Source of the DNA: an uncultured Clostridia bacterium
Lineage (GTDB): Bacteria; Bacillota; Clostridia; Oscillospirales; Ruminococcaceae
Reading direction: 5' to 3'
DNA length: 39,334 nucleotides
Assembly: GCA_947600065.1 (NCBI GenBank)
Contig: CANQFZ010000017.1
Location: 1 to 39,334 of the forward strand
The notes under the pieces were generated by a model that was not told the DNA's origin, did no database searches, and saw only the letters and a list, made by a program, of their open reading frames with translations. Both the position numbers and the translations under genes were made by a program. Numbering within the stretch: position 1 is the stretch's first letter; every line of letters begins with the position of its first letter. This document shows, piece after piece, positions 537 to 39,334 of this stretch.

Positions 537-633
537 TGGGGCAAATGCTGACAAGAAACCGAAAGGAACGCGCTCTCACGCTCAAAGGTTTTTCTTACTC
601 AAAGAACTAACCCCTCAAAAATTCTTTGTTGGA

Positions 634-739
634 TTGCCTTTTCAAAGTACGGCTTTGAAAAGGCAATGCGGGGAAAACTCCTTTTAGAGGTTAGAGATTA
701 GAGGTAAGAGGTTAGAATTTTAGTTCTAACCTCTTTTTT
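634..739 (+). repeat. Partial copy of the composite intergenic repeat
   Basis: The first palindrome of the composite repeat is present: TTGCCTTTTCAAAG (634-647) pairs with CTTTGAAAAGGCAA (653-666). GCGGGGAAAACTC follows, which is a truncated second palindrome, then a 7-base-unit array (AGAGGTT-like). The array folds back on itself: AAGAGGTTAGAA (706-717) pairs with TTCTAACCTCTT (724-735), followed by a T run, so this end also looks like a plus-strand intrinsic terminator. No gene is visible between 497 and 762 apart from this and the terminator. Confidence 0.8.
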
Positions 740-3639: not shown

Positions 3640-3820
3640 CCTTTTTCTTGTCGGCTCCTTTTGTTTTACTGGGTTTGCCGTTTCAAAACAAGGTTTTGAA
3701 ACGGCAATGCGGGGAAAACTCTTGTTCTCCCCAAACCCTTTAGCGCCTAGCTTCGCTATTTCGCGGCTTTGCCGCTCGAAACAAATTCCAGCCTCTTGCT
3801 TCTAATCTCTAGCCTCTATC
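3640..3820 (+). repeat. Internally deleted copy of the composite repeat
   Basis: The first palindrome is TTGCCGTTTCAAAAC pairing with GTTTTGAAACGGCAA (3675-3707). It is followed by GGGGAAAACTCTTGTTCTCCCC-type sequence, CAAACCCTTTAGCGC, a short CGCGGC/GCCGC-like segment, and a 7-base-unit array (GCCTCTTGCTTCTAATCTC). The long AAACTTTTTT palindrome of full copies is missing, as if deleted between short GC repeats. No gene is visible between 3543 and 3880. Confidence 0.75.
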
Positions 3821-3849: not shown

Positions 3850-3892
3850 ATTTTCAGTAATGTTGTGAAGTGTCGGAGCGTTGGAGTGGGAA

Positions 3893-5809
3893 ATGGAACT
3901 GACCGAAATTAAAACGCTGTATTCTTCGGACAGAACCAAAATAGTTCTCGGAGAGTACAAGGACAAACAATTTTTAAAAAAGACGGGCGAATTCTCCCAA
4001 GAAGCCGCCCTTGCTATTTCGTCTCTTAATTCACCTTACGTCGCCAAAATATTTGAGGTCTGCGAAAATTATATCATAACCGAATATGCCGAGGGCTTTC
4101 CATTGTCCGAACGCAAAATTACGAAAAAAGACGTCCTCAGCACGGCTCTAGAACTTTGCGACGCAATATCTGCGCTCCATGAAAAAAACATTATCCACCG
4201 CGACATAAAGCCCTCTAATATCATTATGTGCGAAAACGGGCATATAAAGCTCATCGACTTTGACGCGGCAAGGCTCAAAAAAACCGCCGAAAACAAGGAC
4301 ACCCGCTTTATCGGCACCGACGGCTTTGCCCCGCCCGAGCAATACGGCTTTATGCAGACCGACGAAAGAAGCGACATATATTCGTTCGGCGTTACATTAA
4401 AAATGCTGCTCGGCGAGGATTTTGGACATATCCCTTATAGACGCGTTATTGAAAAATGCACTCGGTTCAATCCCGACGAGCGCTATCCTTCCATAAAAGC
4501 CGTAAAGTTCGCGTTATTGCAAAGCAGAATAATGCCGTTTATAATTGCGGGCGCGGCTGTCGCTGTGTGCATTGCGGCGGCGGTATTGTTTGCAAAGCTT
4601 CTGCCCTCGGCTGACGACAATGATTTGTATTCATCATTTTCTTCGGAATACAGCGCCGTTCCTTCTCATTCTTCATCTGCCCCCGCTCAAAGCTCTTATT
4701 CAAGTTTATCTGTTGAAGAAAGCTCTATCTCTTCGGACATTTCATCAAGTTCATTTTCAAGCTCACCAAAATCATCAAGCAATTCAAATTCATCTAAATC
4801 ATCAAGCAGTTCAAGTTCATCAAGATTTTCCAGCAGTTCAAGCTCGTCAAAATCATCAAGCAGTTCAAGTTCATCTAGAACATCAAGCAATTCAAGTTCA
4901 TCTAGATTTTCCAGCAGTTCAAGTTCATCTAGATCATCAAGCAATTCAAGCTCATCAAGATCATCAAGCAGTTCAAGTTCATCTAGATCTTCCAGCAGTT
5001 CAAGTTCATCAAGATTATCAAGCAGTTCAAGTTCATCATCTTCATCTAATAAAAACCCAAGTGAAATTGTACAGGCGTCCGAGGCTTTTCCCATATTCTG
5101 GGAAGCGCTTACATTGCCGAACGGATTTCCGAAGCTTTCGGATACGGTGTTGTTTTATGATTTCACACCTTTTGAAACCGAGGCGGATATGACCTACAGA
5201 ATTGAGATAGACCGGAAAGAGCTCAGCACGTCCGAAATAAATGCAATTGACGAAAAATTAAAAAAGTGGTTCGGCTCAAATGCCGAGTTTACGGCAAATA
5301 CAGACGACCAAGGAAGACCAAGCCTGTACTATAATAATTCCGATTATTCCGCTAATCTTTATTATTACAGCCTTACAGACCCCCGCTGGATGCTTGAGCT
5401 TTACGGGAAAAAGAGCGTGCAACTGCCCGAGCTTAATCTTAAATTTGCCAACCCTACCATAACGCCAAACAGCGAGCGACCGATAAAATGGGAAGACAAA
5501 GAAGTTCCCGACGAGCTGCCAAAGCTCACGGACTATGTTTCCGAGGCGACTGTTTATCACGGTGATTATGAAATACACTGGTATGATATGAGCTTCAGCG
5601 AGGCACAAGCCGTTTGCAAAAAGCTGGTGAACGCCCTTGACGGATATAGTTATCAGCTTCAGTTCAGCAATGAAACAACGCATAGTCATTACTCCTTTAA
5701 TTTTATTGGGAAATTAAACGGTAAAGAAAGATCCGTATACTTTGATTTCAGCAAAAAAGGTAAAGACGGCTCGTATACGCTGGTAGGCGTGAGGGAGGAT
5801 GGCAGTTGA
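3893..5809 (+). CDS. Membrane-anchored eukaryotic-like Ser/Thr protein kinase with serine-rich linker and duplicated extracellular domain
   Basis: This 638-residue protein should phosphorylate Ser/Thr in the cytoplasm in response to an outside cue. Residues 1-205 form the kinase. They include a likely ATP-binding Lys29 or Lys30, HRDIKPSN (102-109, catalytic Asp104), IDFD (121-124, Mg-binding Asp122, with DFD in place of DFG), GTDGFAPPEQYG (141-152) and SDIYSFG (160-166). The glycine-rich loop is degenerate. A transmembrane helix spans about 213-236. A serine-rich linker with eleven 9-residue repeats follows (285-383). The C-terminus holds two related domains of about 100 residues, each opening with LPxGFPKLSD or VPDELPKLTD. 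The ATG at 3893 is preferred because GGAG lies 6 bases upstream; an in-frame TTG at 3881 is the alternative. No PASTA repeats are present. Confidence 0.9.
   Translation: MELTEIKTLYSSDRTKIVLGEYKDKQFLKKTGEFSQEAALAISSLNSPYVAKIFEVCENYIITEYAEGFPLSERKITKKDVLSTALELCDAISALHEKNIIHRDIKPSNIIMCENGHIKLIDFDAARLKKTAENKDTRFIGTDGFAPPEQYGFMQTDERSDIYSFGVTLKMLLGEDFGHIPYRRVIEKCTRFNPDERYPSIKAVKFALLQSRIMPFIIAGAAVAVCIAAAVLFAKLLPSADDNDLYSSFSSEYSAVPSHSSSAPAQSSYSSLSVEESSISSDISSSSFSSSPKSSSNSNSSKSSSSSSSSRFSSSSSSSKSSSSSSSSRTSSNSSSSRFSSSSSSSRSSSNSSSSRSSSSSSSSRSSSSSSSSRLSSSSSSSSSSNKNPSEIVQASEAFPIFWEALTLPNGFPKLSDTVLFYDFTPFETEADMTYRIEIDRKELSTSEINAIDEKLKKWFGSNAEFTANTDDQGRPSLYYNNSDYSANLYYYSLTDPRWMLELYGKKSVQLPELNLKFANPTITPNSERPIKWEDKEVPDELPKLTDYVSEATVYHGDYEIHWYDMSFSEAQAVCKKLVNALDGYSYQLQFSNETTHSHYSFNFIGKLNGKERSVYFDFSKKGKDGSYTLVGVREDGS
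4745..5041 (+). repeat. 27-bp in-frame minisatellite encoding the serine-rich linker
   Basis: Eleven consecutive 27-base units each encode nine residues of the form x-S-S-S/N-S-S-S-S-R/K, where x is Ser, Phe, Thr or Leu. The first two and last units are most diverged. Units alternate between TCATCAAGC and TTTTCCAGC openings. Copy number is likely to vary between strains by slippage or recombination without shifting the frame. Confidence 0.9.
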
Positions 5810-7202: not shown

Positions 7203-7934
7203 CTAATACCACTCTTGTATCTTATGTCCCAGATAGGCGAAAGCGATCAAGCCGAAAATAATAAACGCCGTCATCATATTATTTACCAGCGCGCCTATCA
7301 AAAGCGTTATGCCGACACCTACGCCTATAAAAATTCCTACTCCCGCAAACTCTCCCTTTGCCGCGGCAAGGATAATTGCACAAATAAGACGTATAAAGTC
7401 GCAGATACAGAAGACAACGAAAAAGATGTTGCTGATTATAACGACCGAGTTATAAGAGTTCACCTTCTCGTTGTATTCGTTTAACTGCGTGCTTGTCCAA
7501 TAATAATAATCCTGTGGCAGCGTGGGCTTCATACCTTCGGCGATAAATCCTACAATAAAGCAAATGACAATAGAAGCTATCGCGCCTATCCTTGTAAACA
7601 AGATTATGTTGAGGTAGACATTCTGAGTGTTATTGTTCATTTGCTGATTATTGGGCTGAGTAGGTTGAGCGGGTTGAGTGGGTTGAGTGGGTTGAGTGGG
7701 TTGAACAGGTCGGGCAGGCTGTGAGGGCTGATTGTTATAAGGCTGAGGGGTATTTGTCGTCTGAGGGCGCGGAGCATTATAGGTGTTTGCAGAGGTTGTT
7801 GTCCTTTCGGGGGTTTTGTTGAGCTCGACTTTTTTAGAGGGCTCGGAGTTCAGTTTTATCTCGCAGTTTGCTCCGCATTTCGGACAGAAAATGCTGTCGT
7901 CGGGGATTTGCTTTCCGCATTTTTTACAGAACAT
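7203..7934 (-). CDS. Zinc-ribbon membrane protein 1 of 6 (four predicted helices)
   Basis: This 243-residue protein begins with the zinc ribbon shared by this gene array, MFCKKCGKQIPDDS then FCPKCG, giving four metal-binding Cys within the first 20 residues. Residues about 22-105 are a Pro/Gln/Thr/Asn-rich linker with PTQ repeats coded by a 9-base DNA repeat. The C-terminal 140 residues contain about four membrane helices (from YLNIILFTRIGA, SVVIISNIFFVV, GVGIFIGVGVGI and AFIIFGLIAFAY). The ribbon is probably cytoplasmic. It is the last gene of the operon, 15 bases after its neighbour. Function unknown; no enzyme motif is seen. Confidence 0.8.
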   Translation of the reverse strand: MFCKKCGKQIPDDSIFCPKCGANCEIKLNSEPSKKVELNKTPERTTTSANTYNAPRPQTTNTPQPYNNQPSQPARPVQPTQPTQPTQPAQPTQPNNQQMNNNTQNVYLNIILFTRIGAIASIVICFIVGFIAEGMKPTLPQDYYYWTSTQLNEYNEKVNSYNSVVIISNIFFVVFCICDFIRLICAIILAAAKGEFAGVGIFIGVGVGITLLIGALVNNMMTAFIIFGLIAFAYLGHKIQEWY

Positions 7935-7949
7935 ATGTATTCCTCCTTA

Positions 7950-9338
7950 TCATTTAATTTCCGCGCCGCAAAACCTGCAAAACCGCGTATCACTGTCCGC
8001 AATAGATCTGTTTCCGCATTTTCGGCAGAACACTTCATTGTTGCTTGATTTGCCGTCGGGCTTTACATTCGGGCTCGGAGATTTTGAGAGGCGGTTTGGC
8101 TTGTCGTAAACGTCAATTTTTTTAAGCTCCAGCTTTGAAACCGAAAGGTCGGCTTTGGCGGCGGAAGCTACCCACACCTTTGAAGTAAACTGTTCGCCTC
8201 TTTGTATACATTCTACCTTCCGCTGACATTCATCTGCTATCGCTGCGGCGTTTCCTATATGCTTTATATCGCGCGCTTTTCTTGCGGTTTCTTTCAGAGT
8301 GTCAATGTCGTTTGAACACAGCAGAGCCGTTACAAGCTTTTTCAGTTCGTCCAGGCGCGAAATGCTCTTTGCCTGCCTTTCACATTCCTTCGCCATTCTT
8401 TCCGCTTCTTCAAAATCCTTTATTTCAAGAAAATCAAGCCTGCAGTCCTCTATCTGATATTCGTCCTTTGCGACCTCAAGCTTGTTTATAACCAGATTGA
8501 ACTTTATTGCCTTTGCGTTATATTCGCACAATTCGGCATATTCAACGCTGTTTTTCTTTTCGGGAACGGCTCTGAAAAGCTTCGCCGCCTCAAAATATTC
8601 CTCGGCAGAAGTACTGTGCCGCAAGGCTTTAACCTTTTCAATGGCGCAGTTGTAGATCTTATCCGAAAACCAACCCTTTATTTCTTCGACCGTTTTTGTC
8701 ATTTCTTCGCTGTCGACCAGTGGTTTCAGCGTTGTCAAAAACTCTCCGAGCTCCTCGGGAGAACCGCTTTTTCTCAGGCTCTCCGCTTCCTCGCGAATAA
8801 GCCGTATGTATTTTTCCTCACATTCGGCGACAAGCTGGGGGCAGTCCTCAAAATCCCCGAACGCGGCGAGCGTATCCCGCGCTTCTATACATTCTTCGGG
8901 CGTTTCGGCTCCTTCAAGCTTTTTATAGGCGTCGTTGTATTCAAACAGCTTTAAATCAAACTCGCACTTTTCCAGCAGCTCTTTTGAATTTTTATAATCT
9001 CCCAGATACTTCAGATTTTTAACGGCTGTTTGTATATCGGTTATATCCTGCGCCGTGTCTATTATCTTTATTGTTCTTGAATAAAGAACGGATATGTTCT
9101 TTTCGCGGCATTGCTTTAATTTCTCGGCGGAGTCTTTATAGTCTCCCAGCCTTTCAAATGTCTTTTCAAGATTTTCGAGCTCTTCGGCTGTCCTCGCCGT
9201 GTCCATTTTTCTGACGGCGTTTGTATACTCCCAGAGCTTAGAATCGCCCACCTTCTTTTCCTCCGTGATCGGCGCTCCGCATTTAAAACAGAACGCGCTG
9301 TCGTTGGGGATCTCATTTCCGCATTTTCTGCAAAACAT
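7950..9338 (-). CDS. Zinc-ribbon protein 2 of 6, helical repeats, ribbons at both ends
   Basis: This 462-residue protein has a zinc ribbon at the N-terminus (MFCRKCGNEIPNDS, FCFKCG) and another at the C-terminus (VFCRKCGN, RFCRFCG). Between them lie helical repeats of TPR/Sel1-like character with the recurring segment LGDYKDSAEKLKQC, repeated as LGDYKNSKELLEKC and FGDFEDCPQLVAEC. This YKDS motif is common in clostridial zinc-ribbon proteins. No membrane helix or signal peptide is seen, so it should be cytoplasmic. The ATG at 9338 is chosen because GAGAGGTG ends 6 bases upstream; the in-frame GTG 9 bases earlier is part of that site. A scaffold or adaptor role is possible, but the function is unknown. 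Confidence 0.82.
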   Translation of the reverse strand: MFCRKCGNEIPNDSAFCFKCGAPITEEKKVGDSKLWEYTNAVRKMDTARTAEELENLEKTFERLGDYKDSAEKLKQCREKNISVLYSRTIKIIDTAQDITDIQTAVKNLKYLGDYKNSKELLEKCEFDLKLFEYNDAYKKLEGAETPEECIEARDTLAAFGDFEDCPQLVAECEEKYIRLIREEAESLRKSGSPEELGEFLTTLKPLVDSEEMTKTVEEIKGWFSDKIYNCAIEKVKALRHSTSAEEYFEAAKLFRAVPEKKNSVEYAELCEYNAKAIKFNLVINKLEVAKDEYQIEDCRLDFLEIKDFEEAERMAKECERQAKSISRLDELKKLVTALLCSNDIDTLKETARKARDIKHIGNAAAIADECQRKVECIQRGEQFTSKVWVASAAKADLSVSKLELKKIDVYDKPNRLSKSPSPNVKPDGKSSNNEVFCRKCGNRSIADSDTRFCRFCGAEIK

Positions 9339-9362
9339 TTTTGTCACCTCTCTGTAAAGATT

Positions 9363-10805
9363 TTAATAACCTACATATTCTACTTTAACGGCATAGCTGT
9401 ATAGATCATCGGCTGTAAATTCTATAGTCGCATAATAGTCGGTAACGCCGTTATTATTGTGCCGATAGCCGAGCTCATACCAGCTTGCTCCGTGGTCTCC
9501 CGCGCCCATTTCTAAAGCGTCATATACATCAAAGCTCATATAGTTGGAGTAATAATCAAGGTTCTCTCCGAGATGCATATTCCCCATATTACTGTCAATA
9601 ATTGTGCTCTTGTCGCCGTATAAAATAATATATTCAACTCTTGAGTTGTTGCTTTTAATAAAGCATTTTGAGCCGTCATTATAAGAATAAGTTCGGTTGG
9701 AAAAGCCTACGGTCAGATTATATTTATCATAATAGGCATTGTATCCTACATAATACTCGGGCATTCCGTATTTTTCCACTATCTGGCTATATGTCAGTTT
9801 AGCAAGGTCTACGGCGGTTTTTGCTGTAACCTGCGGTTTTGGCTGTTCAACAGGGGTTTCGGGCTCTGCGGGCTTTGCGGGGTTTTTAAAATACTGACAA
9901 TCTTTAAAAGCCTGGTCGTTGAATGTAATTTGCTTTGCGCCAATGCTTTCGTATTTCTTGATAATTTCGCTTATTTGCCTAGGGTATGTAGCAGTTTCGC
10001 CCGCTACAACTATTTGCCGAAGCGACGTGCAGCCCGCAAAGGCGTCCTGCGAAATACTGTGCATAGTGTAAATGTCGCAGTTCCAGTATACGGTTTCAAG
10101 TTGGGTGCATTGTTCAAAAATATGAGGAGATAGGTCGGCGGATAGTGTTATGGTTTTTAATGTAGAATATGAAAACGCCCCGTCTCCTATTGTTTCTACA
10201 TTATCCCCCAGGGTCAAGCTTTCAATATTCGTATACAAAAACGCACAATCTCCTATTTCTTTTATATTATTCCCCAAGGTCACGCTTTCAGCTTTTAAAC
10301 CCCAAAACGCATTATCATAGATCTTTGTGACAGGCTTTCCGTACATTTCATCGGGAATGACAACATTCGGGTCGCTTCCCTTATACCCGCCGATCGTGTA
10401 TGTGCCGTCCTTTGAGAGATAATATTTAAAATCGGGGTATTGGTCTCTGTTGACGTAGGCTATGAATATTATCAAGCCCGCCACAAGCAGAACGCCTGTT
10501 ATTGACAGTATGATTATAAGCGCTTTCTTTGAGATCTTGGGCTTTGCCTTGACAGCTACAACAGAAGGCGAAGTTATAACATTCTCTCCGCTCTGCGGTG
10601 CTTCACGATCGGAAGAATATGATGAGGTTTTGTTGTCATCAGTTGAATTATAAGAACTCTTATACTCATAAGACGAAGCGAAAGCGTTTTTGTCAACCTC
10701 GCGGGTCTCGGCGGGCGGGGTTTGGTTTTCACCCACCGCCACTCCGCATTTCGGACAGAACTCGCTGTCGTCGGGGATTTGATTTCCGCATTTTCTGCAA
10801 AACAT
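9363..10805 (-). CDS. Zinc-ribbon protein 3 of 6, with transmembrane helix and BspA-like leucine-rich repeats
   Basis: This 480-residue protein has a zinc ribbon at residues 1-21 (MFCRKCGNQIPDDS, FCPKCG), a Ser/Thr/Asn-rich linker, a transmembrane helix at about 93-117, and BspA-type (LRR_5) leucine-rich repeats at about 125-300 (IKEIGDCAFLYTNIESLTLG, VETIGDGAF). A proline-rich joint leads to a C-terminal domain (about 330-480) of beta-rich, Tyr-rich character. With the ribbon inside, the repeats should face outward. BspA-like repeats often mediate binding at cell surfaces. The ATG at 10805 follows AAAGGAGTG with 6 bases between. It is 23 bases downstream of the next paralog, and the same fold order is found there. 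Confidence 0.85.
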   Translation of the reverse strand: MFCRKCGNQIPDDSEFCPKCGVAVGENQTPPAETREVDKNAFASSYEYKSSYNSTDDNKTSSYSSDREAPQSGENVITSPSVVAVKAKPKISKKALIIILSITGVLLVAGLIIFIAYVNRDQYPDFKYYLSKDGTYTIGGYKGSDPNVVIPDEMYGKPVTKIYDNAFWGLKAESVTLGNNIKEIGDCAFLYTNIESLTLGDNVETIGDGAFSYSTLKTITLSADLSPHIFEQCTQLETVYWNCDIYTMHSISQDAFAGCTSLRQIVVAGETATYPRQISEIIKKYESIGAKQITFNDQAFKDCQYFKNPAKPAEPETPVEQPKPQVTAKTAVDLAKLTYSQIVEKYGMPEYYVGYNAYYDKYNLTVGFSNRTYSYNDGSKCFIKSNNSRVEYIILYGDKSTIIDSNMGNMHLGENLDYYSNYMSFDVYDALEMGAGDHGASWYELGYRHNNNGVTDYYATIEFTADDLYSYAVKVEYVGY

Positions 10806-10828
10806 TTTTGTCACTCCTTTATAACAAA

Positions 10829-12436
10829 TCAATCACTGCTTTTCTGAATAGATATAACTTCAATTATCTCGTTTCCATTTCGCCAATTTGTGATCATAGT
10901 TATCCAATATCCATCAACATCATAATCTATTTCGCGAGTTTCAAAAACGCCACCATCAGGTTCTCCCAATATTTCCTCCACTTCTTCAACGGTCATACCG
11001 GGGTGTATAAAATCTGTTTTTCCGTGATTGCTTGAAATATAGCGGTCTTCATCGGAAAAAACTATCTCTTTTACAGGTACATAATAATCGTTGTCAATAT
11101 CATAATAGTCGTTTAAAGAAAACATTCCTACTTCGTCATAAAACATCAAATAGTTTCCTTCCCATAATAAAGGTATGTCCCTATAGCCATACTCCCAGTG
11201 ATAGACGCTGTTGATTATTTCCCTGAGAGTTTTACCTAAATAATCAGCCGCAGGGAACTCGTGATATTGCTTTGTGGTGTCTTTAAAATACTCACAGCCG
11301 CTGAAAGCATTATCGTTAAAAATTATGTATTTTGATATTTCTTTTATCTGGTCGGGACAGTTGGCTGTTTTGCCCGAAATAACAATTTGACGAAGCGAAG
11401 AACAGCCGTTGAAAGTGTCCTGGGGAATACTACCGTTGTATACGTTAATGTTACAGTTCCAGTATACCGTTTCGAGAGATGTGCAGTTTGCAAAAAGCTG
11501 GGGAGCAAATCTTGTATTTTCATTTTTTAAAGTAAATTCCTTTAAACTTTTACAGTCCGAAAAAGCCGCTCGTGAGAGATTTCCTCCGATAGCCGCCACC
11601 TCAATGCCCGACGTTTCAAATGCCCTTTCGCCCATTTGAGTTACATGCGACAGGGTCAATCCCTTAAGCGAGCGAGTTCCGCGAAAGGCAAGCTCTCCGA
11701 CGGATATATAACCGTTATAGGGAAAATTGAATTGGCTTAAGCTTTCGCAGTCATAAAACGCCCTGTTTCCTATTACGACTGTAAGATCGTTAATTGTTTC
11801 TTCAAAGCTTACGGTTTCTACTGTAGAACCTTCAAATGCGCTCTCTCCTATTTCTTTCATATTCGAGCCGAAAGAGACTTCCGCCAGTTCCATGCCGAAA
11901 AAAGCCTTTTCCGCTATCTTTACAACGGGCATGTTGTTTATTGTATTCGGAATGTCAACAAAAACGAGCCCTCCCGTATACCCGTCTATTATATAACCCG
12001 TGCCGTCATCATTAAGATGATATTTAAAGTAGGGGTATTCGTCTACGACGGTACTTTCCGCATTTTGCTCATCTCTCGGCATAAACGACCTAATATAAAA
12101 CGCCGCGCATATTACAATCAGAACGCCCAAAATTGACAGCAAAAATATAAGCATCGGCTTAGGAGTTTTGGGCTTGTCCTTTACGGTTGCAAGAGTGGCA
12201 GTGTCGCTTTTATCAGCCTCGAGGCTTTCGGCGGGCGGGGTTTCAACCTTCGGGGGTTCGGCTTTCGGGGTTTCCGCCTTCGGGGTTTCTGCCTTCGGGG
12301 TTTCTGCCTTCGGGATTTCAACCTTCGGAGAATTAACTTCGCCCGCAGGCGTTATGTTTTCACCCGTTGCCGCCCCGCACCTCGGGCAGAACTCGCTGTC
12401 GTCGGGGATTTGATTTCCGCATTTTCTGCAAAACAT
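10829..12436 (-). CDS. Zinc-ribbon protein 4 of 6, with transmembrane helix and BspA-like leucine-rich repeats
   Basis: This 535-residue protein is a close paralog of the gene at 9363. It has a ribbon (MFCRKCGNQIPDDS, FCPRCG), a linker made of PKAET repeats at about residues 38-68, a transmembrane helix at about 94-115, and then longer BspA-like repeats (about 130-370: MKEIGESAFEGSTVETVSF, LFANCTSLETVYW, TFNGCSSLRQIVISG). The C-terminal domain (about 385-535) ends with a segment like those that follow small-protein folds (HPGMTVEEVEEILGEPDGG), reminiscent of the SmpA/BamE-like or lipoprotein 'EEVxxxLGxPD' motif. The ATG at 12436 has AAGGAGTG upstream. The ribbon should be cytoplasmic and the repeats external (inferred). 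Confidence 0.85.
   Translation of the reverse strand: MFCRKCGNQIPDDSEFCPRCGAATGENITPAGEVNSPKVEIPKAETPKAETPKAETPKAEPPKVETPPAESLEADKSDTATLATVKDKPKTPKPMLIFLLSILGVLIVICAAFYIRSFMPRDEQNAESTVVDEYPYFKYHLNDDGTGYIIDGYTGGLVFVDIPNTINNMPVVKIAEKAFFGMELAEVSFGSNMKEIGESAFEGSTVETVSFEETINDLTVVIGNRAFYDCESLSQFNFPYNGYISVGELAFRGTRSLKGLTLSHVTQMGERAFETSGIEVAAIGGNLSRAAFSDCKSLKEFTLKNENTRFAPQLFANCTSLETVYWNCNINVYNGSIPQDTFNGCSSLRQIVISGKTANCPDQIKEISKYIIFNDNAFSGCEYFKDTTKQYHEFPAADYLGKTLREIINSVYHWEYGYRDIPLLWEGNYLMFYDEVGMFSLNDYYDIDNDYYVPVKEIVFSDEDRYISSNHGKTDFIHPGMTVEEVEEILGEPDGGVFETREIDYDVDGYWITMITNWRNGNEIIEVISIQKSSD
12241..12330. repeat. 15-bp tandem repeat coding PKAET linker
   Basis: Six consecutive 15-base units (plus-strand forms TTTCAACCTTCGGGG, TTTCTGCCTTCGGGG) code the PKVET/PKAET linker of the paralog at 10829. 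The frame is kept whatever the copy number. Confidence 0.85.
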
Positions 12437-12448
12437 TTTTATCACTCC

Positions 12449-12493
12449 TTATTTAAAATACTTACAGTCTTCAGACAAAATCATACTTTCCCA
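12449..12493 (-). pseudogene. In-frame coding remnant after the stop of zinc-ribbon protein 5
   Basis: Directly after the TAA of the 12494-13495 gene the same frame reads WESMILSEDCKYFK and then stops again. The end DCKYFK matches DCQYFK and GCEYFK in the two longer paralogs, at the place where their leucine-rich domain ends. This suggests the gene once ran on and was cut by a stop codon plus small deletions. Confidence 0.6.
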
Positions 12494-13495
12494 TTACAAT
12501 AAATCTTTTAATTTGCCGGGAATTCGACCGCAACCCCTGAATGCATCACGCTCAATGCTTAAAGATATGTCATCGGGGAAATCGAATTCGGATAAATTAT
12601 AACAGCCTGCAAATGCTCTTTCGCCTATATAGAAGCTGTCGGGCATATTCTGATTAAAATATACGGCTTCTATCGAAGATCCTGCAAATGTTTCTGCACC
12701 TATTCCTTCTACATTAGCCCCCAAAGTCACGCTTTTGATCTTTGAATCTTCAAAAGCTCTACCTCCGATCCATGTAACGGGAATACCCATTATTCTGTCA
12801 GGTATGACTACATTAACATCGCTTCCCGTATACTCGTAAATATAAAATGTACCATCCATAGAACGAGAACGTTTAAATTCGGGGTGGATTGAAAAAATAA
12901 AACAAATTATAAAAACAACAAGTCCGATTAAGACTAATATCTTGATTGCTTTAACAATTGCTTCCTTTGCCTTGTTCGGCTTTCTGACTGTGAGGGGAGT
13001 GGTGAGCCTGTCAAGCGCGTCGTAGCTCTGCTGTGAGGTAGCGGATAAATTCAGCTCGACAGAGTTTGTTTCCGATTTGTAGTTTCTCGCGGAGGGGGCG
13101 GAGAAGATATTATAATTCTTCCTTACGGGAGGAGTTGAAGCAATATTGCCGGTGTTGTCACGGCTATAAGAAGCATCATTGTAAAATTCAAGATCAACCG
13201 ACCTCGGAGCAGCGCTGTCTACCTCGTTTTGTATTGTGAAAGCTTCCTTCTTTAGTAATACGAGCGTTCCGTCGTCCTGCTTAGATGGAGAAGATGTTTT
13301 CTGCGCGGTAGATGAGGCGGGAGCTTTGTCGTCCTGTTCAAGTGAAGACTTTATTTTTATAGGTCGAGGAGTTTTCGTCGGGCGGGGCTGCGCTTTTGTC
13401 GGTAAAGGCTCGGTCAATGTCGGTACATCCGCCCCGCACCTCGGGCAGAACACGCTGTCGTCGGGAATTTGATTTCCGCATTTTCTGCAAAACAT
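12494..13495 (-). CDS. Zinc-ribbon protein 5 of 6, C-terminally truncated leucine-rich paralog
   Basis: This 333-residue protein has the shared ribbon (MFCRKCGNQIPDDS, FCPRCG), a long polar linker of about 150 residues rich in Ser, Pro and Lys, a transmembrane helix at about 184-203 (IKILVLIGLVVFIICFIF) and only about 110 residues of BspA-like repeats (VEGIGAETFAGSSIEAVYF, ERAFAGCYNLSEFDF). It stops in the middle of the segment that continues in both longer paralogs, and the post-domain region they carry is absent. AAGGAGAT lies 7 bases ahead of the ATG. It may still be made as a short surface protein, or may be decaying. It is 57 bases upstream of the next paralog. Confidence 0.8.
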   Translation of the reverse strand: MFCRKCGNQIPDDSVFCPRCGADVPTLTEPLPTKAQPRPTKTPRPIKIKSSLEQDDKAPASSTAQKTSSPSKQDDGTLVLLKKEAFTIQNEVDSAAPRSVDLEFYNDASYSRDNTGNIASTPPVRKNYNIFSAPSARNYKSETNSVELNLSATSQQSYDALDRLTTPLTVRKPNKAKEAIVKAIKILVLIGLVVFIICFIFSIHPEFKRSRSMDGTFYIYEYTGSDVNVVIPDRIMGIPVTWIGGRAFEDSKIKSVTLGANVEGIGAETFAGSSIEAVYFNQNMPDSFYIGERAFAGCYNLSEFDFPDDISLSIERDAFRGCGRIPGKLKDLL

Positions 13496-13580
13496 TTTAT
13501 ATCTCCTTTTTCATAGATAAGCCTTTGAAAGCCTTGATAAGCATAATCTCGTTTTAAATTGCCAATTAAAAAAATCGGAC

Positions 13581-14405
13581 TTAAATGCCCTTGCGCTGTG
13601 CATATTCGGGATAGTTCTTTTTAAGCTCATTATTATACAAATTTTCAAACCAAGTCTCCTTTGTAAGCTGCGACTTTATCCAGACGCTCACTTGATGAGA
13701 ATCGCCTGTCCTATAGCAACCAAGTATTGCTTTTGTCATTTTGTCAAGAAATCTTTCCGAGAGACAAGGTATTCTCGGAAGCTTTGTTAATGACAGATAG
13801 ACTGCCGCATCGCGGTCGGCGTTTTCTCTCAGATAGTCCTTGCGCATTGTGTCTTTAATAAAGCCTCTGCCAACCGTTTCATAATAATAGTTTCTGAGAT
13901 TTTCGATAACCTTTTCGGCAGAAGCAAGTAATTTTATAAAATAATATTCCTCGGCATATTTCTGCCTTTGGTCGGGCGGGCAGCGCTTCAGAGCAAGCTG
14001 CATACATTCAATTGCACTGTCAAAATAATCTGCGAAATAATCATTTGCGCCGAGATTGTTGATGTAATAATCAGCCAGACAATCGTTTGCGATAAAGTCG
14101 CCGTTGTCATAACTTTTGATTTTTTTACAGTCGTCTTCTGCGGCATTGAGCCCGTATATGTCAATCAAATTATAGCCGCTTTTCTTTACGACCGCCGACA
14201 CCTTTCTGTGAAGCGTATCAAGAATATCCAGAGTATCACTGTCAAAATCAGGCACGTTGTCTTTGGGCTCGGCAGGTTTCGCCGCCTCGGGCTCGGCGAT
14301 TTTAACATTCACTATCGTTTTGGGTTTAGTCGCTATGGGCGCACCGCAATACGGACAAAACACGCTGTCCACAGGGATTGTATTTCCGCATTTTCTGCAA
14401 AACAT
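13581..14405 (-). CDS. Zinc-ribbon protein 6 of 6, soluble helical C-terminus (first gene of the array)
   Basis: This 274-residue protein has the shared ribbon (MFCRKCGNTIPVDS, FCPYCG). After a short linker (about 25-50) comes a mostly helical domain with no membrane helix or signal, probably cytoplasmic. Segments such as YFDSAIECMQLALKRCPPDQ, KYAEEYYFIKLLASAEKVIE and VSVWIKSQLTKETWFENLY look like irregular helical repeats. I do not recognise a named family. The ATG at 14405 is used because GGAGG lies 8 bases upstream; an ATG 15 bases earlier would overlap that site. As the promoter-proximal member, it starts the minus-strand array that ends at 7203. Confidence 0.78.
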   Translation of the reverse strand: MFCRKCGNTIPVDSVFCPYCGAPIATKPKTIVNVKIAEPEAAKPAEPKDNVPDFDSDTLDILDTLHRKVSAVVKKSGYNLIDIYGLNAAEDDCKKIKSYDNGDFIANDCLADYYINNLGANDYFADYFDSAIECMQLALKRCPPDQRQKYAEEYYFIKLLASAEKVIENLRNYYYETVGRGFIKDTMRKDYLRENADRDAAVYLSLTKLPRIPCLSERFLDKMTKAILGCYRTGDSHQVSVWIKSQLTKETWFENLYNNELKKNYPEYAQRKGI

Positions 14406-14436
14406 GACATTTACCTCCATAAACTTTGTTATTCTT

Positions 14437-14504: not shown

Positions 14505-14705
14505 GGAAACTGGTTGGCAGTATACAATATACAGTGTACAGTATTCAGTAACAGCCGAAAGGCTGTTCGCTTAAGATAACGCATAAAAAAAGAGGTTAGG
14601 GTTAAAACTCTAGCCTCTAGCTTCTATCTCTGTAAGCCAAACAACTTTATCTCCAAAACAACCTTTGACTTCTTACCTCTTACCTCTAACATCTTACCTC
14701 TAAAA
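14505..14705. repeat. CTGTACA-type and AGAGGTT-type arrays side by side
   Basis: There is no gene between 14406 and 14750. Left part: TATACAGTGTACAGTATTC array followed by the hairpin AACAGCC/GGCTGTT (GAAA loop). Right part: AGAGGTTAG (14591-14599) pairs with CTAGCCTCT (14610-14618) with one G-U pair. Then comes an inverted copy of the TATCTC...CAAACAACTTTATCTCC module and TTACCTCTTACCTCTAACAT units. It ends a few bases before the rnpB -35 box. Confidence 0.78.
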
Positions 14706-14709
14706 GCTC

Positions 14710-15171: not shown

Positions 15172-15530
15172 TTTTTCTTTCCCGCTCAAAGGCAAATCCA
15201 TTTTCGAGGTTGTTCTCCGCTTTATACCTCTCTTAGGATTGCCGTTTCAAAGCACGGCTTTGAAACGGCAATGCGGGGAAAACTTTTGTTTTCCCCGCAC
15301 CCCAGGTTCAATGCCGCAGGCATTGAACCTGATGCGCTAATAAGTGGATTGCGGTGGCTTCGCCCCCGCGCCCCCACCGGAGAGGAAACTTTTTTGTAAA
15401 AAAGTTTCCTCTCTGGACTCTCCTTCAAAAAACTTAAATGCGCCGCCCGTTAGGTGGTGGTAATTTGAAAAGTGCTTCGCCGCCCAAAACAAATTCTAGT
15501 CTCTAACCTATAATTCCTAGCTTTTAGCCG
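15172..15530 (+). repeat. Near full-length copy of the composite intergenic repeat
   Basis: This is the best reference copy, and no gene is visible in it. The order is: lead-in (TTTCTTTCCCGCTCAAAGGC); palindrome A, TTGCCGTTTCAAAGC with GCTTTGAAACGGCAA (15239-15271); palindrome B, GGGGAAAAC with GTTTTCCCC; palindrome C, CAGGTTCAATGCC with GGCATTGAACCTG; a GC-rich stretch; palindrome D, GAGAGGAAACTTTTTT with AAAAAAGTTTCCTCTC; then CTTCAAAAAACTT, GCGCCGCCCG, and a short 7-base-unit array (CTAGTCTCTAACC). It also resembles the copies at 17.4 kb (inverted), 18.1, 38.5 (inverted) and 39.2 kb. Confidence 0.85.
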
Positions 15531-17363: not shown

Positions 17364-17393
17364 ATTATACAACAAGTGATAGTGTCTTGTCAA
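17364..17393 (-). promoter_or_regulatory. Sigma-A promoter of the flotillin operon
   Basis: On the minus strand there is TTGACA (17388-17393), an 18-base spacer and TATAAT (17364-17369), about 64 bases ahead of the ATG. Confidence 0.82.
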
Positions 17394-17399
17394 TAGAGC

Positions 17400-17720
17400 G
17401 GTAAAATTTTTTCGAGCGGCAAAGCGCTTTCAATTTCCAAACCGCCAAACGGGCGGCGCACGAAAGTTTTTTGAAAAGGGTGTCCAGAGGGAAAAACTTT
17501 TTTGTCAAAAAAGTTTTTCCCTTTGGTCGCGGCGATAGCCGCGAAATTGCGCTAGCTAGGCGCATCAGGTTAAATGCCTGCGGCATTGAACCTGGGGTGC
17601 GGGGAAAACAAGAGTTTTCCCCAATTTCCCGTTTCAAATGCAAGCATTTGAAACGGGAAACCGCTGGAGGGGAGCGGGGGAACCGGCAGGTGCCACCGCC
17701 GTTTGGTTTATCGACAGTTA
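17400..17720 (-). repeat. Inverted copy of the composite intergenic repeat
   Basis: Reading the minus strand gives the same module order as at 15172: palindrome A with its changed form TTTCCCGTTTCAAATGC/GCATTTGAAACGGGAAA (17625-17660), B (GGGGAAAACTC/GAGTTTTCCCC region), C (CAGGTTCAATGCC / GGCATTTAACCTG with one change), GC-rich CGCGGC, D (AGGGAAAAACTTTTTT with AAAAAAGTTTTTCCCT) and the CTTTCGTGCGCCGCCCG end. The left end meets the flotillin promoter. No gene is present in 17301-18569. Confidence 0.82.
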
Positions 17721-17843
17721 TAAATGAGCGAAGCACAAAACGGGTGTGCGCGTTTAAACCAAATCAACAGATTGAAAAGCGGAAAACTTTATAATTATGC
17801 TCCTATATACTAAAGCAAGTTTATTCAAGGAAGACAACGTTAA

Positions 17844-17933
17844 GGGCGCCGCGATTTTTGCTGAGCAGAGCGAAGTGAAAATCGCGAACGGAGCGTTAGC
17901 GGAGTGAGCAGCCGTGTAAGCGGCGCGGCGCCC
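17844..17933. repeat. GC-rich cruciform-like element
   Basis: GGGCGCCGCG (17844-17853) pairs perfectly with CGCGGCGCCC (17924-17933). Inside, CGATTTT pairs with AAAATCG. The downstream 17930-17995 stretch is G-rich (GGGCGGGGGAG, TCGGGGGCG). There is no coding signal. It is unlike the other repeat modules and I cannot name it. Confidence 0.6.
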
Positions 17934-18099
17934 GTCCCCTCGGAGCGGAACGCGTTTCGGGCGGGGGAGTTAGTTTCGGGGGCGTGCGTTTGAATTGCAG
18001 CAACGAAAGAACACCGACCTACTTTTCGGAAATGCGCCTATGGGCTAACGGAAAAGACGTTAATAGAGCCTAACGCATTTGTTTCCCCGCTCTGAGGTT

Positions 18100-18430
18100 T
18101 TTCTCTACTAAAGCTCATTACCGCTCAACACTTATTTTAGGATTGCCGTTTCAAAGCACGGCTTTGAAACGGCAATCCGGGGAAAACTCTTGTTTTCCCC
18201 GCACCCCAGGTTCAATGCCGCAGGCATTTAACCTGATGCGCTAAACTGGCGTTATTTCGCGGCTTCGCCGCGACCAGAGAGGAAACTTTTTTGAAAAAAG
18301 TTTCCTCTCTGGACTCTCCTTCAAAAAACTTTCGTGCGCCCGCTCGTTTTGTGGTTTGGAAATCAAACGCTGTCCGCCGCTCAAAACAACTTTTACTGAC
18401 TACTGTACACTGCCACCCGCCGACAGGTCG
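18100..18430 (+). repeat. Composite intergenic repeat, plus-strand copy
   Basis: The order matches the 15172 copy: palindrome A (18143-18175), B, C with one mismatch (GGCATTTAACCTG), CGCGGCTTCGCCGCG, D (GAGAGGAAACTTTTTT with AAAAAAGTTTCCTCTC), the CTTTCGTGCGCCCG end, then TGACTACTGTACACTG, a fragment of the other array type. It faces the inverted copy at 17.4 kb, so the two form a large inverted pair around the 17.84 kb element. Confidence 0.82.
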
Positions 18431-26928: not shown

Positions 26929-27543
26929 GTGGCGGAGCAATTGTTTGCGACAAAGGGAAATCTTATAAAAGTAAGGCGCTCGCTAAAGCAAGCGCAGCTG
27001 GGATACGACCTTATGGACAGGAAACGGAGCGTGCTTGTCCGCGAAATGATGTCGCACATAGACGAAGCGAGGGAGCTGCGCGATGAGATAGACACGACGT
27101 ATTCCGAAGCCTACCGCGCTCTTGAATACGCTAATATGACGCTCGGAGTTGTAAGCACGATAGCGAAGACGTTTCCTATAGAAAACTCGCTGAAGCTGTC
27201 GGTGCGCTCGGTTATGAGCGTTGAACTTCCGAAGCTTACCGCTGAACTTTCGCCGTCCGACAGACCGACATATCCCATGACGCTGACAAGCTCGGCGTTT
27301 GACGAGGCGTATATAAAATTCAATCGAGCGAAGGAGATAACCGTTCGGCTTGCCGAAACGGAGAACAGCATTTACCGCCTTGCGGAAGCGATAAAGAAAA
27401 CGCAGAAGCGTGCGAACGCTCTTAAAAACATAATGATCCCGCGCTTTCAGCAGCAGTTGAAGTTTATTTCAAGCGCGCTGGACGAAAAGGAGCGCGAGGA
27501 GTTTTCACGGCAGAAAGTCATAAAACGAAGGAAAATGAAGTAA
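26929..27543 (+). CDS. ntpD: V/A-type ATPase central stalk subunit D
   Basis: This 204-residue protein is the rotor shaft, with two long helices and a shorter middle. Typical segments are FATKGNLIKVRRSLKQAQLG near the start and RRVNALEN-like KRANALKNIMIPRFQQQLKF near the end, the subunit D signature. The start is GTG at 26929, with GGGGGTGA 5 bases upstream. It is separated from ntpB by 162 bases of structured non-coding sequence, where V-ATPase operons usually have little or no gap, and it closes the operon. Confidence 0.94.
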   Translation: MAEQLFATKGNLIKVRRSLKQAQLGYDLMDRKRSVLVREMMSHIDEARELRDEIDTTYSEAYRALEYANMTLGVVSTIAKTFPIENSLKLSVRSVMSVELPKLTAELSPSDRPTYPMTLTSSAFDEAYIKFNRAKEITVRLAETENSIYRLAEAIKKTQKRANALKNIMIPRFQQQLKFISSALDEKEREEFSRQKVIKRRKMK

Positions 27544-27545
27544 GC

Positions 27546-27745
27546 AAGGGGGAAAACCTTTTGAAAAAGGTTTTCCCCCTTGAACCCTCTTTCCAAAACT
27601 TTTATGCGCCGCCGCTGACGCGGCGAACGAAAACCGAACAGCTTTTCTTTACAACTCTAACCATCTTTTTACGTCATATTCAGCGAACAACCATTCCACC
27701 TTTACTGAATACTGTACCCTGTTTACTGTCAACTGCCAACAGCGG
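27546..27745 (+). repeat. Terminator and repeat fragments after the V-ATPase operon
   Basis: AAGGGGGAAAACCTTTT (from 27546) pairs with AAAAAGGTTTTCCCCCTT just after the ntpD stop; this is palindrome D of the composite repeat in another compensated form, and should end the operon transcript. It is followed by CTTTCCAAAACTTTTATGCG, GCGCCGCCGCTG, and a CTGTACA-type fragment (ACTGAATACTGTACC, CTGTTTACTGTCAACTG) at about 27705-27740. Confidence 0.75.
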
Positions 27746-32959: not shown

Positions 32960-33220
32960 GCGCTTTTAGAAGTAAAAGATAAGAGGCAAGATGTAAGAGT
33001 TTTAGCTGAAAGTCTGTTTGCTGATATGATGTACAAAAGCCCACTCGTGGTTCTATTCAAAAGTTGTTTCCCTCAATAACGCTCACTCGCCCCAACCCCC
33101 TGACCCCCTTCCCCTTCTAGAGGTTAGAATTTAGAGGTAAGAGGTAAGAAGTCAAAGGTAGTTTTGGAGATAAAGTTATTTGTTTTTCAGAGAAAGAGGC
33201 TGGAGGATAGAGTTTAAATC
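32960..33220. repeat. Mixed repeat modules between aspartate kinase and SRP RNA
   Basis: No gene is present in 32857-33335. AGAGGTT-type 7-base units flank inverted copies of the GGGCGAATGAGCG module. C-rich runs (4, 5, 5, 4) at 33090-33114 are the reverse of the quadruplex tract at 27789. Then come TTCTAGAGGTTAGAATTTAG and the GATAAAGTTATTTGTTTTTC module followed by AGAGAAAGAGGCTGGAGGAT, as at 1.86, 2.0 and 38.9 kb. Confidence 0.75.
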
Positions 33221-33285
33221 CTGGCGTTTTTCTTTAATATCAATTGCGACAAAAAACATATCACAAAAGTTTTTTCAAAAAGTAC

Positions 33286-38459: not shown

Positions 38460-38815
38460 ACGCAAGGGGGACCCCATCTAGAAGCTAGAGTTTTAGAGGC
38501 TAGAGACTAGAAGATGTATTGAGCGGCGAAGCGCTTTTCTGTTCAAGTAACTTCACGGGCGGCGGCACGAAAGTTTTTTGAAAAGGGAGTCCAGAGGGGA
38601 AAAATTTTTTACAAAAAATTTTTCCCCTTTGGTCGCGGCGTAAGCCGCGAAATTTCGCAAATTAGCGCTAAAGGGTGCGGGGAAAACAAGAGTTTTCCCC
38701 GCATTGCCTTTCCAAATGCAAGCATTTGGAAAGGCAATCCAACAAAGATGTTTTGGGCGGGAAACAACCTCGAAAATGGATTTGCCTTAAAGCGGGAAAG
38801 AAATTCGCTCCCTTG
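38460..38815 (-). repeat. Composite intergenic repeat, inverted copy after recR
   Basis: Read on the minus strand the order is: lead-in with TTTCCCGCTTTAAGGC; palindrome A, TTGCCTTTCCAAATGC with GCATTTGGAAAGGCAA (38704-38736); palindrome B; CACCCTTTAGCGC; CGCGGCTTACGCCGCG; palindrome D, AGGGGAAAAATTTTTT with AAAAAATTTTTCCCCT; CTTTCGTGCCGCCGCCCG; then an AGAGGTT-type array next to recR. Palindrome C is missing. Confidence 0.82.
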
Positions 38816-39200
38816 TATAAAAGTTGTTCTTTTCAAACGCAATTTCTCTAAATAACGTTAATTCGCCTCAACCTGCTAGAGGTAAGAGGTTAGAAATAAG
38901 AGGTAAGAAGTCAAAGGTTGTTTTAAGGGTAAAGTTATTTGTTTTTCAGAGAAAGAGGCTGGAGGCTAGAGTTTAAGAGGAAAAGTTGTTTTCCACTCAA
39001 AACAAATTCTAACCTCCGGCCTCTTCCTTTAATAATCAAAAAACTTTTCCTCTCAAATGCTCCCGAATTTCTTACCTCTTATTTCTAACCTCTAACCTCT
39101 AGAAGGGGAAGGGGGTTAGGGCGAATGAGGGTTATTTAGGAAAACGACTTTTGAAGAGAACAACAAATAAAGGGTTTTATACAAGTGGAACGAAATTTCT
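38815..39200. repeat. Arrays, G-rich tract and shared modules near the window end
   Basis: No gene is visible. The stretch holds inverted halves: TTCTCTAAATAACGTTAATT then AGAGGTAAGAGGTTAGAAAT, a copy of the GTAAAGTTATTTGTTTTTC module, an opposite-facing array (CTTACCTCTTATTTCTAACC), then GGGGAAGGGGGTTAGGG (39105-39121) and GCGAATGAGGGTTATTTAGG, matching 27.8 and 2.1 kb. Confidence 0.75.
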
Positions 39201-39334
39201 TTCCCGCTTTAAGGCAAATCCATTTTCAAGGTTGTTTCCCGCTCAAAACCTCTCTTAGGTTTCCCGTTTCAAATGCTTGCATTTGAAACGGGAAATTGGG
39301 GAAAACTCTTGTTTTCCCCAAACCCTTTAGCGCT
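39195..39334 (+). repeat. Composite intergenic repeat, plus-strand copy cut by the window end
   Basis: The lead-in (TTTCTTTCCCGCTTTAAGGC), palindrome A in the form TTTCCCGTTTCAAATGC/GCATTTGAAACGGGAAA (39260-39295), palindrome B (GGGGAAAAC/GTTTTCCCC) and CAAACCCTTTAGCGC are present; the rest lies beyond the window. Confidence 0.8.

Follow-up and report, generated by a model that had tools for sequence, protein, structure and literature searches.

Hairpins of one family recur between the genes of this contig, and their arms change in sequence while they stay paired. What kind of element is this, how does it spread, and what keeps the arms matched? The window, the whole stretch of 39,334 nucleotides analysed here, is contig C17 of a host MAG (G000; 2.2 Mb, 80 contigs, 98.6% complete), probably an uncultured Clostridia species of gut origin. 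The relatives of a window protein come from uncultured Clostridia/Oscillospiraceae MAGs, several of the nearest being labelled 'Lapin'. The original prediction proposed a structured RNA/DNA element or a mobile repeat of REP or MITE type, and it left selection and a mutational cause of the pairing unseparated.

Architecture, copy number and gene context

The chain opens with a leader of about 65 nt, followed by hairpins A and B. Hairpin C may come next; then there is a spacer such as TTTAGCGC, in some copies a GC-rich hairpin, and lastly hairpin D and a tail. Degenerate heptamer arrays often border the chain. The order claimed originally was constant, with the correction that C and the GC hairpin are optional modules. 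The repeat was present at all seven places named earlier (634, 3675, 15239, 17625, 18143, 38704 and 39260) and in both orientations, as had been claimed: A+B lies on the + strand at five of them (631-683, 3672-3737, 15236-15301, 18140-18205 and 39258-39324) and on the − strand at two (17596-17662 and 38674-38740). Three copies in the window carry the full A-B-C-GC-D-tail (15172-15530, 17369-17726 and 18077-18427). The modules of the first, which serves as the reference copy, and the other pieces in the window are as follows.

15172..15235, + strand: leader of the reference copy; two TTTCCCGCTC-like boxes, unpaired
15238..15272, + strand: hairpin A of the reference copy; perfect 16-bp stem, loop ACG
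15273..15298, + strand: hairpin B of the reference copy; core at 15275-15296, one loop change, CTTTTG
15304..15330, + strand: hairpin C of the reference copy; optional module, perfectly paired here
15351..15369, + strand: GC-rich hairpin of the reference copy; optional module
15377..15416, + strand: hairpin D of the reference copy; GAGAGGAAAC version
15417..15530, + strand: tail of the reference copy; CTCTCCTTCAAAAAACTT..., next GCTTCGCCGCCCAAAACA, running into degenerate CYTCTWR-like heptamers
17369..17726, − strand: second copy; full A-B-C-GC-D-tail, with a different sequence where the leader is expected
18077..18427, + strand: third copy; full chain, inverted relative to the second copy
38475..38805, − strand: fourth copy; GC hairpin and D present, no C module
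39194..39334, + strand: fifth copy; leader-A-B, ended by the contig end
3668..3738, + strand: A-B fragment; A and B hairpins only
573..717, + strand: leader, A and first arm of B, fused to a TTAGAGG heptamer array at ~684
27543..27609, + strand: D' hairpin with a related tail, at the end of a V-ATPase D gene; no A, B or C
14512..14708, + strand: heptamer arrays of both types, CAGTNNN and next CYTCTWR, around a short hairpin; no A-D chain

As a single DNA strand, 15236-15420 folds into a row of hairpins at -71.8 kcal/mol (z = -14.5), compared with -26.6 ± 3.1 kcal/mol for its shuffles, of which 0 of 200 were as good. Elsewhere in the window, copies of a tandem 27-nt unit lie at 4729-5079 within a protein-kinase ORF (3881-5809), and a row of minus-strand ORFs at 7203-14420 shares a 112-nt block six times; two scanned ORFs of that row have zinc-ribbon domains, one of them also a BspA-type LRR.

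The family is abundant in the host and confined largely to its genus. The 22-nt B core, searched with a pattern that allows C or T at one loop base, occurs 85 times in the host genome (43 forward, 42 reverse; reversed-pattern control, 0) and 0 times in 390 other genomes of the class, five of them from other genera of the same family. The further copies expected by the original prediction are thus there, and the outcome of no further copies did not occur. A covariance model of A+B gave at least 106 matches in the host, at least 95 places of them at E<=2.3e-5 among the best 150 of 3185 candidates; ten of the other 11 matches overlap such a place. With the best 84 candidates scored per genome, the model was positive in at least 21 of 37 genus genomes, host included, where a count of 84 is to be read as at least 84 and zero matches among the 84 candidates is no proof of absence. 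Counts were high in G000, G002, G006 and G009; among the scored candidates of G004, G008, G010 and G016 none matched. Outside the genus, one of 24 genomes had one marginal match among its best 84 candidates. Viral contigs had no match to one tail pattern of the element.

The claim that the repeats always lie between genes held with a single exception when ORFs of at least 150 aa were considered (1 of 83 host copies, 0 of 36 G009 copies). At a threshold of 90 aa, 13 of the 83 host copies lay inside ORFs of 273-579 nt, which we take for chance ORFs. The element sits preferentially, above all, in the gaps of converging genes: 28 of the 74 copies placed between two genes in G000 and G009 were in convergent gaps (39 codirectional, 7 divergent), compared with 60 of 509 sampled G009 gene pairs (396 codirectional, 53 divergent). 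This placement count leaves out 40 copies at stretch edges, four far from genes and one inside an ORF. In codirectional gaps, the element was on the strand of the genes in 16 cases and on the opposite strand in 23 (14/13 in G000, 2/10 in G009). Downstream of RNase P, the element is found in G000 and G009 and a distant version at the same spot in G031; G006 has only heptamers there. The RNase P RNA match of G033 is split between C30:16708-16930 and C186:4323-4474 with an overlap of ~40 nt, probably by an assembly break.

Covarying arms, a fixed core and lasting mismatches

Pairing was analysed in 131 B cores with a preceding hairpin (83 from G000, 36 from G009 and 12 from other relatives). When A was anchored at its 3' end, 12 of the 131 A hairpins had a mismatch, amounting to 16 mismatched pairs, two of which were T.G. 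Since MAFFT placed the 5' arm of long A variants wrongly (alignments A1 and A2), pair counts were taken from two sets of equal length, A3 and A4. In A3 (22 distinct 37-nt hairpins, 374 cells), 99.5% of the cells pair; 61 cells were two-sided, differing on both sides from the commonest pair, one was one-sided and two were unpaired; a wobble was seen in one of the 374 cells. Shuffling gave 17.9 ± 3.1 two-sided cells and none of 500 shuffles reached 61, and with the partner column shifted by one the score was 0.11 instead of 0.474. The number of pairs with a two-sided change (9, reached by 74 of 500 shuffles) and the number of pair types (reached by 273 of 500) were not clearly beyond the shuffles. 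A4 (15 distinct 35-nt hairpins) agreed, with nine two-sided cells against 2.6 in shuffles. Furthermore, among 21 distinct perfect A arms, 13 arm pairs differ by exactly one base pair with both sides changed, and the changes are therefore scattered over several positions. The original claims that the A arms covary, and that pairing is kept while the sequence changes, are borne out by these counts. The significance test proposed with them is positive on copies that are related to one another, and the shuffles take no account of this relatedness. The copies are not independent, because many two-sided changes may be a few old events spread by copying. Mean pairwise identity among the host copies was 0.64 for leaders (n=76), 0.65 for tails (n=59) and 0.78 for A hairpins (n=82). 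One A hairpin near a contig end (L242, G000:C62:84-149) has five mismatches and arms that resemble two A types, as if by recombination inside A or an assembly chimera.

Loops are found inverted on unchanged arms. Identical arms carry loops in both orientations in A (TT/AA, TTT/AAA, GTA/TAC, ATA/TAT) and in the GC hairpin (TCC/GGA), and the TAT loop is found in the G009 orthologue of the reference copy. With hairpins oriented by B, 5 of the 52 pairs of equally long loops on identical arms were reverse complements, compared with a mean of 0.87 under a crude null of uniform random loops (17 of 20000 simulations as high); without L100 the figure was 4 of 48 (84 of 20000 as high). According to PMC8604942, template switching between short inverted repeats leaves homogenised arms and inverted spacers as its signature. 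The loop inversions, together with the scarcity of wobble, suggest that template switching at the DNA level is a part-cause of the matched arms.

Hairpin B is the part of the element with the highest sequence conservation. Its inner core was identical in 129 of 131 hairpins, most of that core having been fixed by the collecting pattern itself. The outer pairs covary (TGC/GCA in 84, TGT/ACA in 30 and ATT/AAA in 4 of 131, the rest rare or mismatched). In 10 further congeners, 15 of 17 B-like hairpins had the exact core, a sameness that is partly selected because the loci were fetched by similarity and the pattern fixes the outline. In ten of the 17, a palindromic stretch of 12 bp or longer, with no more than one mismatch, lies within 4 nt. 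These palindromes in A's place were not subject to the similarity selection that acts on B, and their sequence is mostly unlike the host A, that of G033 being similar.

Mismatches persist in C and D. After the 131 B cores, 48 sequences continue C-like; a complete C hairpin could be parsed in 43, with a C.T mismatch in 37, perfect pairing in two ways in 5 and T.T in 1. A mismatch was present in 33 of 112 D hairpins, a set in which one is plainly a different hairpin; the 35 mismatches among 2149 pairs were A.C 21, C.T 7, G.T 5, A.A 1 and T.T 1, and most A.C cases are one shared state intermediate between two perfect states. These lasting mismatches indicate that arm matching is strong, not automatic. 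Three versions of D had been said to keep matching partners; D is indeed mostly paired, and the third version, GGGGGAAAACC, belongs to D' at 27543-27609, a relative of D that comes without A, B or C.

Turnover at orthologous sites

The flanks of 60 host sites were compared with stretches of relatives. Fifteen matched (in G009 and G002), and the flotillin/V-ATPase gap was added by comparison with L071. At the matched sites, 28 of 30 flanks were 87-96% identical, L015 and L204 each having one flank at only 72-73%. Among the 16 orthologous sites, one had the same module string (L016/L057), one differed in C only (L019/L043), one was empty (L071) and 13 were different. These calls were made by fuzzy patterns that miss some pieces (the reference copy gave D only, window_15380_15413); 10 of the 16 sites were also read in sequence, and L015, L204, L212, L220, L230 and L231 rest on the fuzzy calls. 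At the empty site, L071 lacks the block 17440-18410 and has just a short CAGTNNN-like remnant in its place, with no clear target duplication at this one site, the other compared sites not being clean.

The differing sites were of several kinds. At L015, L219 and L240, three of the 13, G009 has heptamer arrays without the chain. The element lies in opposite orientation between species at L020/L179. At L040/L182, D', heptamers, tail, D, C and almost the whole of B are common to the two species; their GC hairpins differ, and the sequences diverge past B. At L228/L173 and L240/L172, the change-over comes after GGGGAAAAC in B or D', at the start of a heptamer unit. Fusions of heptamers to stems recur, at least nine with B cut after its first arm and at least 17 at the end of B minus its last 1-2 bases. 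The chain can also be kept while the type of hairpin A differs, as in L016/L057 and both L019/L043 copies. It is rare for close relatives to share one version of the element at a given site. The search for occupied and empty sites suggested by the original prediction thus found one empty site of 16 and copies that come, go and change between close relatives, which supports the view that they behave like a non-autonomous mobile repeat. L016 also has a separate insertion of ~150 bp at ~520-679 (G000:C60), with inverted ends like TTTCARACTGTATA, which is absent in L057 (G002) and has the appearance of an ordinary MITE. G036 carries a similar sequence close to its RNase P slot (L252).

The heptamers that border the chain are also found on their own. 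The tail often runs into CYTCTWR heptamers and the leader side often has CAGTNNN, an uncounted impression from a scan that misses modules. A strict scan of 640 kb of G009, with contigs chosen by number, found 19 arrays of at least three CYTCTWR units and 10 of CAGTNNN (reversed patterns, 0 and 1); a looser list of 229 starts includes coding false positives. Degenerate arrays without a chain lie in the window at 680-2200, 14512-14708, 32962-33236 and 38872-39107 and at many other loci, and may be elements of their own. Some form inverted pairs ~100-200 nt apart, with ends like CCTGCTAGAGG...CCTCTAGCAGG. In L248 (G022), 3' of RNase P, ~25 nt of the RNase P RNA 3' end are repeated ~150 nt on with TTAGAGG-type heptamers between, as if a duplication had accompanied the heptamer array. 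Cyanobacterial STRR are further heptamer repeats.

Origin of the spread and of the matched arms

The original prediction expected a REP-associated transposase. None was found: the host and its three best-matching relatives (G002, G006, G009), all element-rich, had no match to Y1_Tnp/RAYT, RVT_1, DDE_Tnp_1 or DDE_3, and PF01797 (RAYT/Y1), present in 19 of 61 genomes searched, gave 0 in G000, G001, G002, G006, G009 and G033. RAYT-type genes can be lost, so that absence today is not absence in the past, as the part of PMC3733652 used here notes. Tyrosine recombinase matches numbered 24 (G000 8, G002 4, G006 5, G009 7). Eight of these loci were inspected and had no element modules in their 1-1.5 kb flanks; two matches outside the inspected loci (G000:C49:2512-3069 and G009:C39:11873-12430) have copies within ~2 kb. 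Three tyrosine recombinases were scanned, none over its curated cut-off and all far below the NCBIfam integron cut-offs. These scores and the eight inspected loci bear on a comparison with integron attC sites, whose mark is a dedicated integron integrase next to a cassette array. Of ten ORFs beside copies, nine matched ordinary Pfam families and one had no match; none was a transposase by Pfam.

Neither of the two mobile types proposed originally is supported. As in REPs, there are high-copy intergenic palindromes (85 B cores, at least 95 A+B places). In most REP families, GTAG is found in >90%, some being degenerate (PMC3733652); the five letters before A in 130 copies were GTAGG 19, GTAAG 21, TTAGG 32, ATAAG 10, CTAGG 8 and others, with GTAG directly before A in only 19 of 130. 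The family fails REP membership because RAYT is absent and the GTAG tag is not conserved. As expected of a MITE, there is insertion polymorphism (17440-18410 against L071, and the orthologous-site comparison). By eye, however, no terminal inverted repeats were seen in the chain, the ends of leader and tail do not form an inverted repeat, the one empty site (L071) showed no clear target-site duplication, and the searched families (Y1_Tnp, RVT_1, DDE_Tnp_1, DDE_3) supplied no partner IS.

With a confidence slightly better than even, we lean towards a genus-restricted, non-autonomous, modular interspersed repeat, BOX- or REP/BIME-like, whose modules are exchanged at the DNA level and whose arms are matched partly by template switching and partly by selection. 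Spread and module swaps would proceed by recombination or replication-fork template switching among copies, with swap breakpoints placed in hairpin stems and heptamer arrays; the breakpoints inside B or D' stems at orthologous sites support such exchange. The arms would stay matched to a fair extent because one arm templates the other, which would also invert loops, and selection or the loss of poorly paired copies may aid the matching. Hairpin B would be the putative site recognised by whatever copies or tolerates the element, because its sequence, not only its pairing, is conserved across the genus. Template switching alone cannot produce the fixed sequence of B. What counts against this explanation is that automatic arm correction should leave no mismatch, whereas 37 of 43 C, 33 of 112 D and 12 of 131 A hairpins have one. 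No copying enzyme or intermediate was seen in the families and loci searched. It is also conceivable, though rather unlikely, that the family is a transposase-free selfish repeat whose palindromes and heptamer arrays multiply and recombine via fork template switching; its pairing would be renewed by arm copying while A and D drift, and B would be fixed as a start site for the fork or for a genus-specific hairpin enzyme.

A classical non-autonomous mobile element of the MITE/REP type has a real but minor chance of being the answer. Its dedicated transposase or recombinase would belong to a family beyond those searched (IS110, IS256, IS3, IS21, IS66, serine recombinases and others) or have been lost since, and selection on enzyme-recognised hairpins would keep the pairing. 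The empty/occupied difference at 17440-18410 and the lineage-specific amplification fit such an element, the B core conserved across congeners is what an enzyme binding site would look like, Watson-Crick stems with little wobble suit recognition of single-stranded DNA, and the two tyrosine recombinase matches within ~2 kb of copies are at hand. However, the four families searched were absent from all four genomes, the eight inspected recombinase loci lacked element modules in their flanks, no terminal inverted repeats or target duplication were seen, and the blocks are composite, not unit insertions. That assembly or binning collapsed or mixed repeats in metagenome contigs is very improbable. 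The relatives named here come from MAGs, the draft host assembly is fragmented with many copies at contig ends, and hairpin A of L242 sits near such an end with ill-fitting arms; nevertheless, separate genomes have the same module order together with matching flanking genes, copies also lie inside long contigs such as G000:C1, and misassembly would not yield covariation.

A cis-acting RNA element (a terminator, mRNA stabiliser, attenuator or RNA-binding site) under selection at the transcript level is improbable. It would account for the covariation of hairpin A (A3, A4), for the enrichment in convergent gaps, that is, at the 3' ends of genes, and for the position of D' close after stop codons where examined (window 27543, L040, L240); the A.C mismatches of D (21 of 35) would become G.U if the opposite strand were transcribed. 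Most of those A.C cells are one shared state, however, the codirectional copies are of mixed orientation (16 same, 23 opposite), and the module content of a site changes between close species. RNA-type covariation with tolerated G.U intermediates fails on the wobble counts (1 of 374 cells in A3, T.G in 2 of 16 mismatched A pairs, G.T in 5 of 35 in D). No Rfam family matched the element at the gathering threshold, and the hits at E<=1 were all sub-threshold, most of them to microRNA-like hairpins. The structured RNA of the original prediction is therefore disfavoured, since G.T is not preferred, gene orientation is mixed and Rfam has no match at threshold; RNA-level selection on the element is not supported.

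The preferred reading, DNA-level exchange with partial template switching, bears on a wider matter. 'Compensatory' change is usually read as RNA selection, and around a hundred copies per genome in several species make this family a natural experiment to separate two causes of it. Template switching, if true, would call for caution when covariation is used to discover RNAs in repeats. How BOX-like repeats spread is an old question that the family poses anew, here in genomes without four common kinds of mobiliser.

In open-access papers, a coverage that makes the result weak, we found no fitting description in Clostridia or Oscillospiraceae and nothing relevant that joins interspersed repeats with template switching. 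BOX elements have a high copy number. As far as the source covers it, BOX of Streptococcus pneumoniae (PMC3049150) resembles our family in being a composite intergenic repeat with a fixed module order, a variable-number inner module, strong predicted hairpins and between-strain module variation at one locus, in a ~2-Mb Bacillota genome. The modular order with variable inner modules is found here in the C-like continuation after 48 of 131 B cores and in the module strings. The likeness is one of organisation; what sets our family apart is its covarying arms, its inverted loops and the heptamer arrays that often flank the chain. The same paper (PMC3049150) has a proposal, based on similar ends, that ISSpn2 mobilises BOX, whereas no such partner was found here. 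REP/BIME and REPIN with RAYT, as partly covered by PMC3733652, share intergenic palindromes, subfamilies with complementary stem changes and a preference for the 3' side of genes. They differ in having RAYT, which the host lacks, and a GTAG that is not conserved here, in stems of mostly 6-9 bp compared with 16-20 bp, and in G.T pairs, often observed in REPs (PMC3733652) and rare in our A hairpins. TAACTGA repeats (PMC4679880, in the excerpt used) are 7-nt tandem units in bacterial intergenic DNA; these and STRR, from unrelated bacteria, resemble our arrays, which are built of degenerate units (CYTCTWR; CAGTNNN) and are often found next to a hairpin chain. Organellar double hairpin elements, GC clusters and the sponge RHE are likewise described, within the portion of PMC2800124 consulted, as putatively mobile intergenic families with no known adaptive function; they are mitochondrial and mostly single or double hairpins, whereas here the module chain is conserved. 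Quasipalindrome correction, in what PMC8604942 sets out of it, shares arm homogenisation and spacer inversion in short inverted repeats, and there it is described for individual inverted repeats, whereas here it would concern a dispersed modular family.
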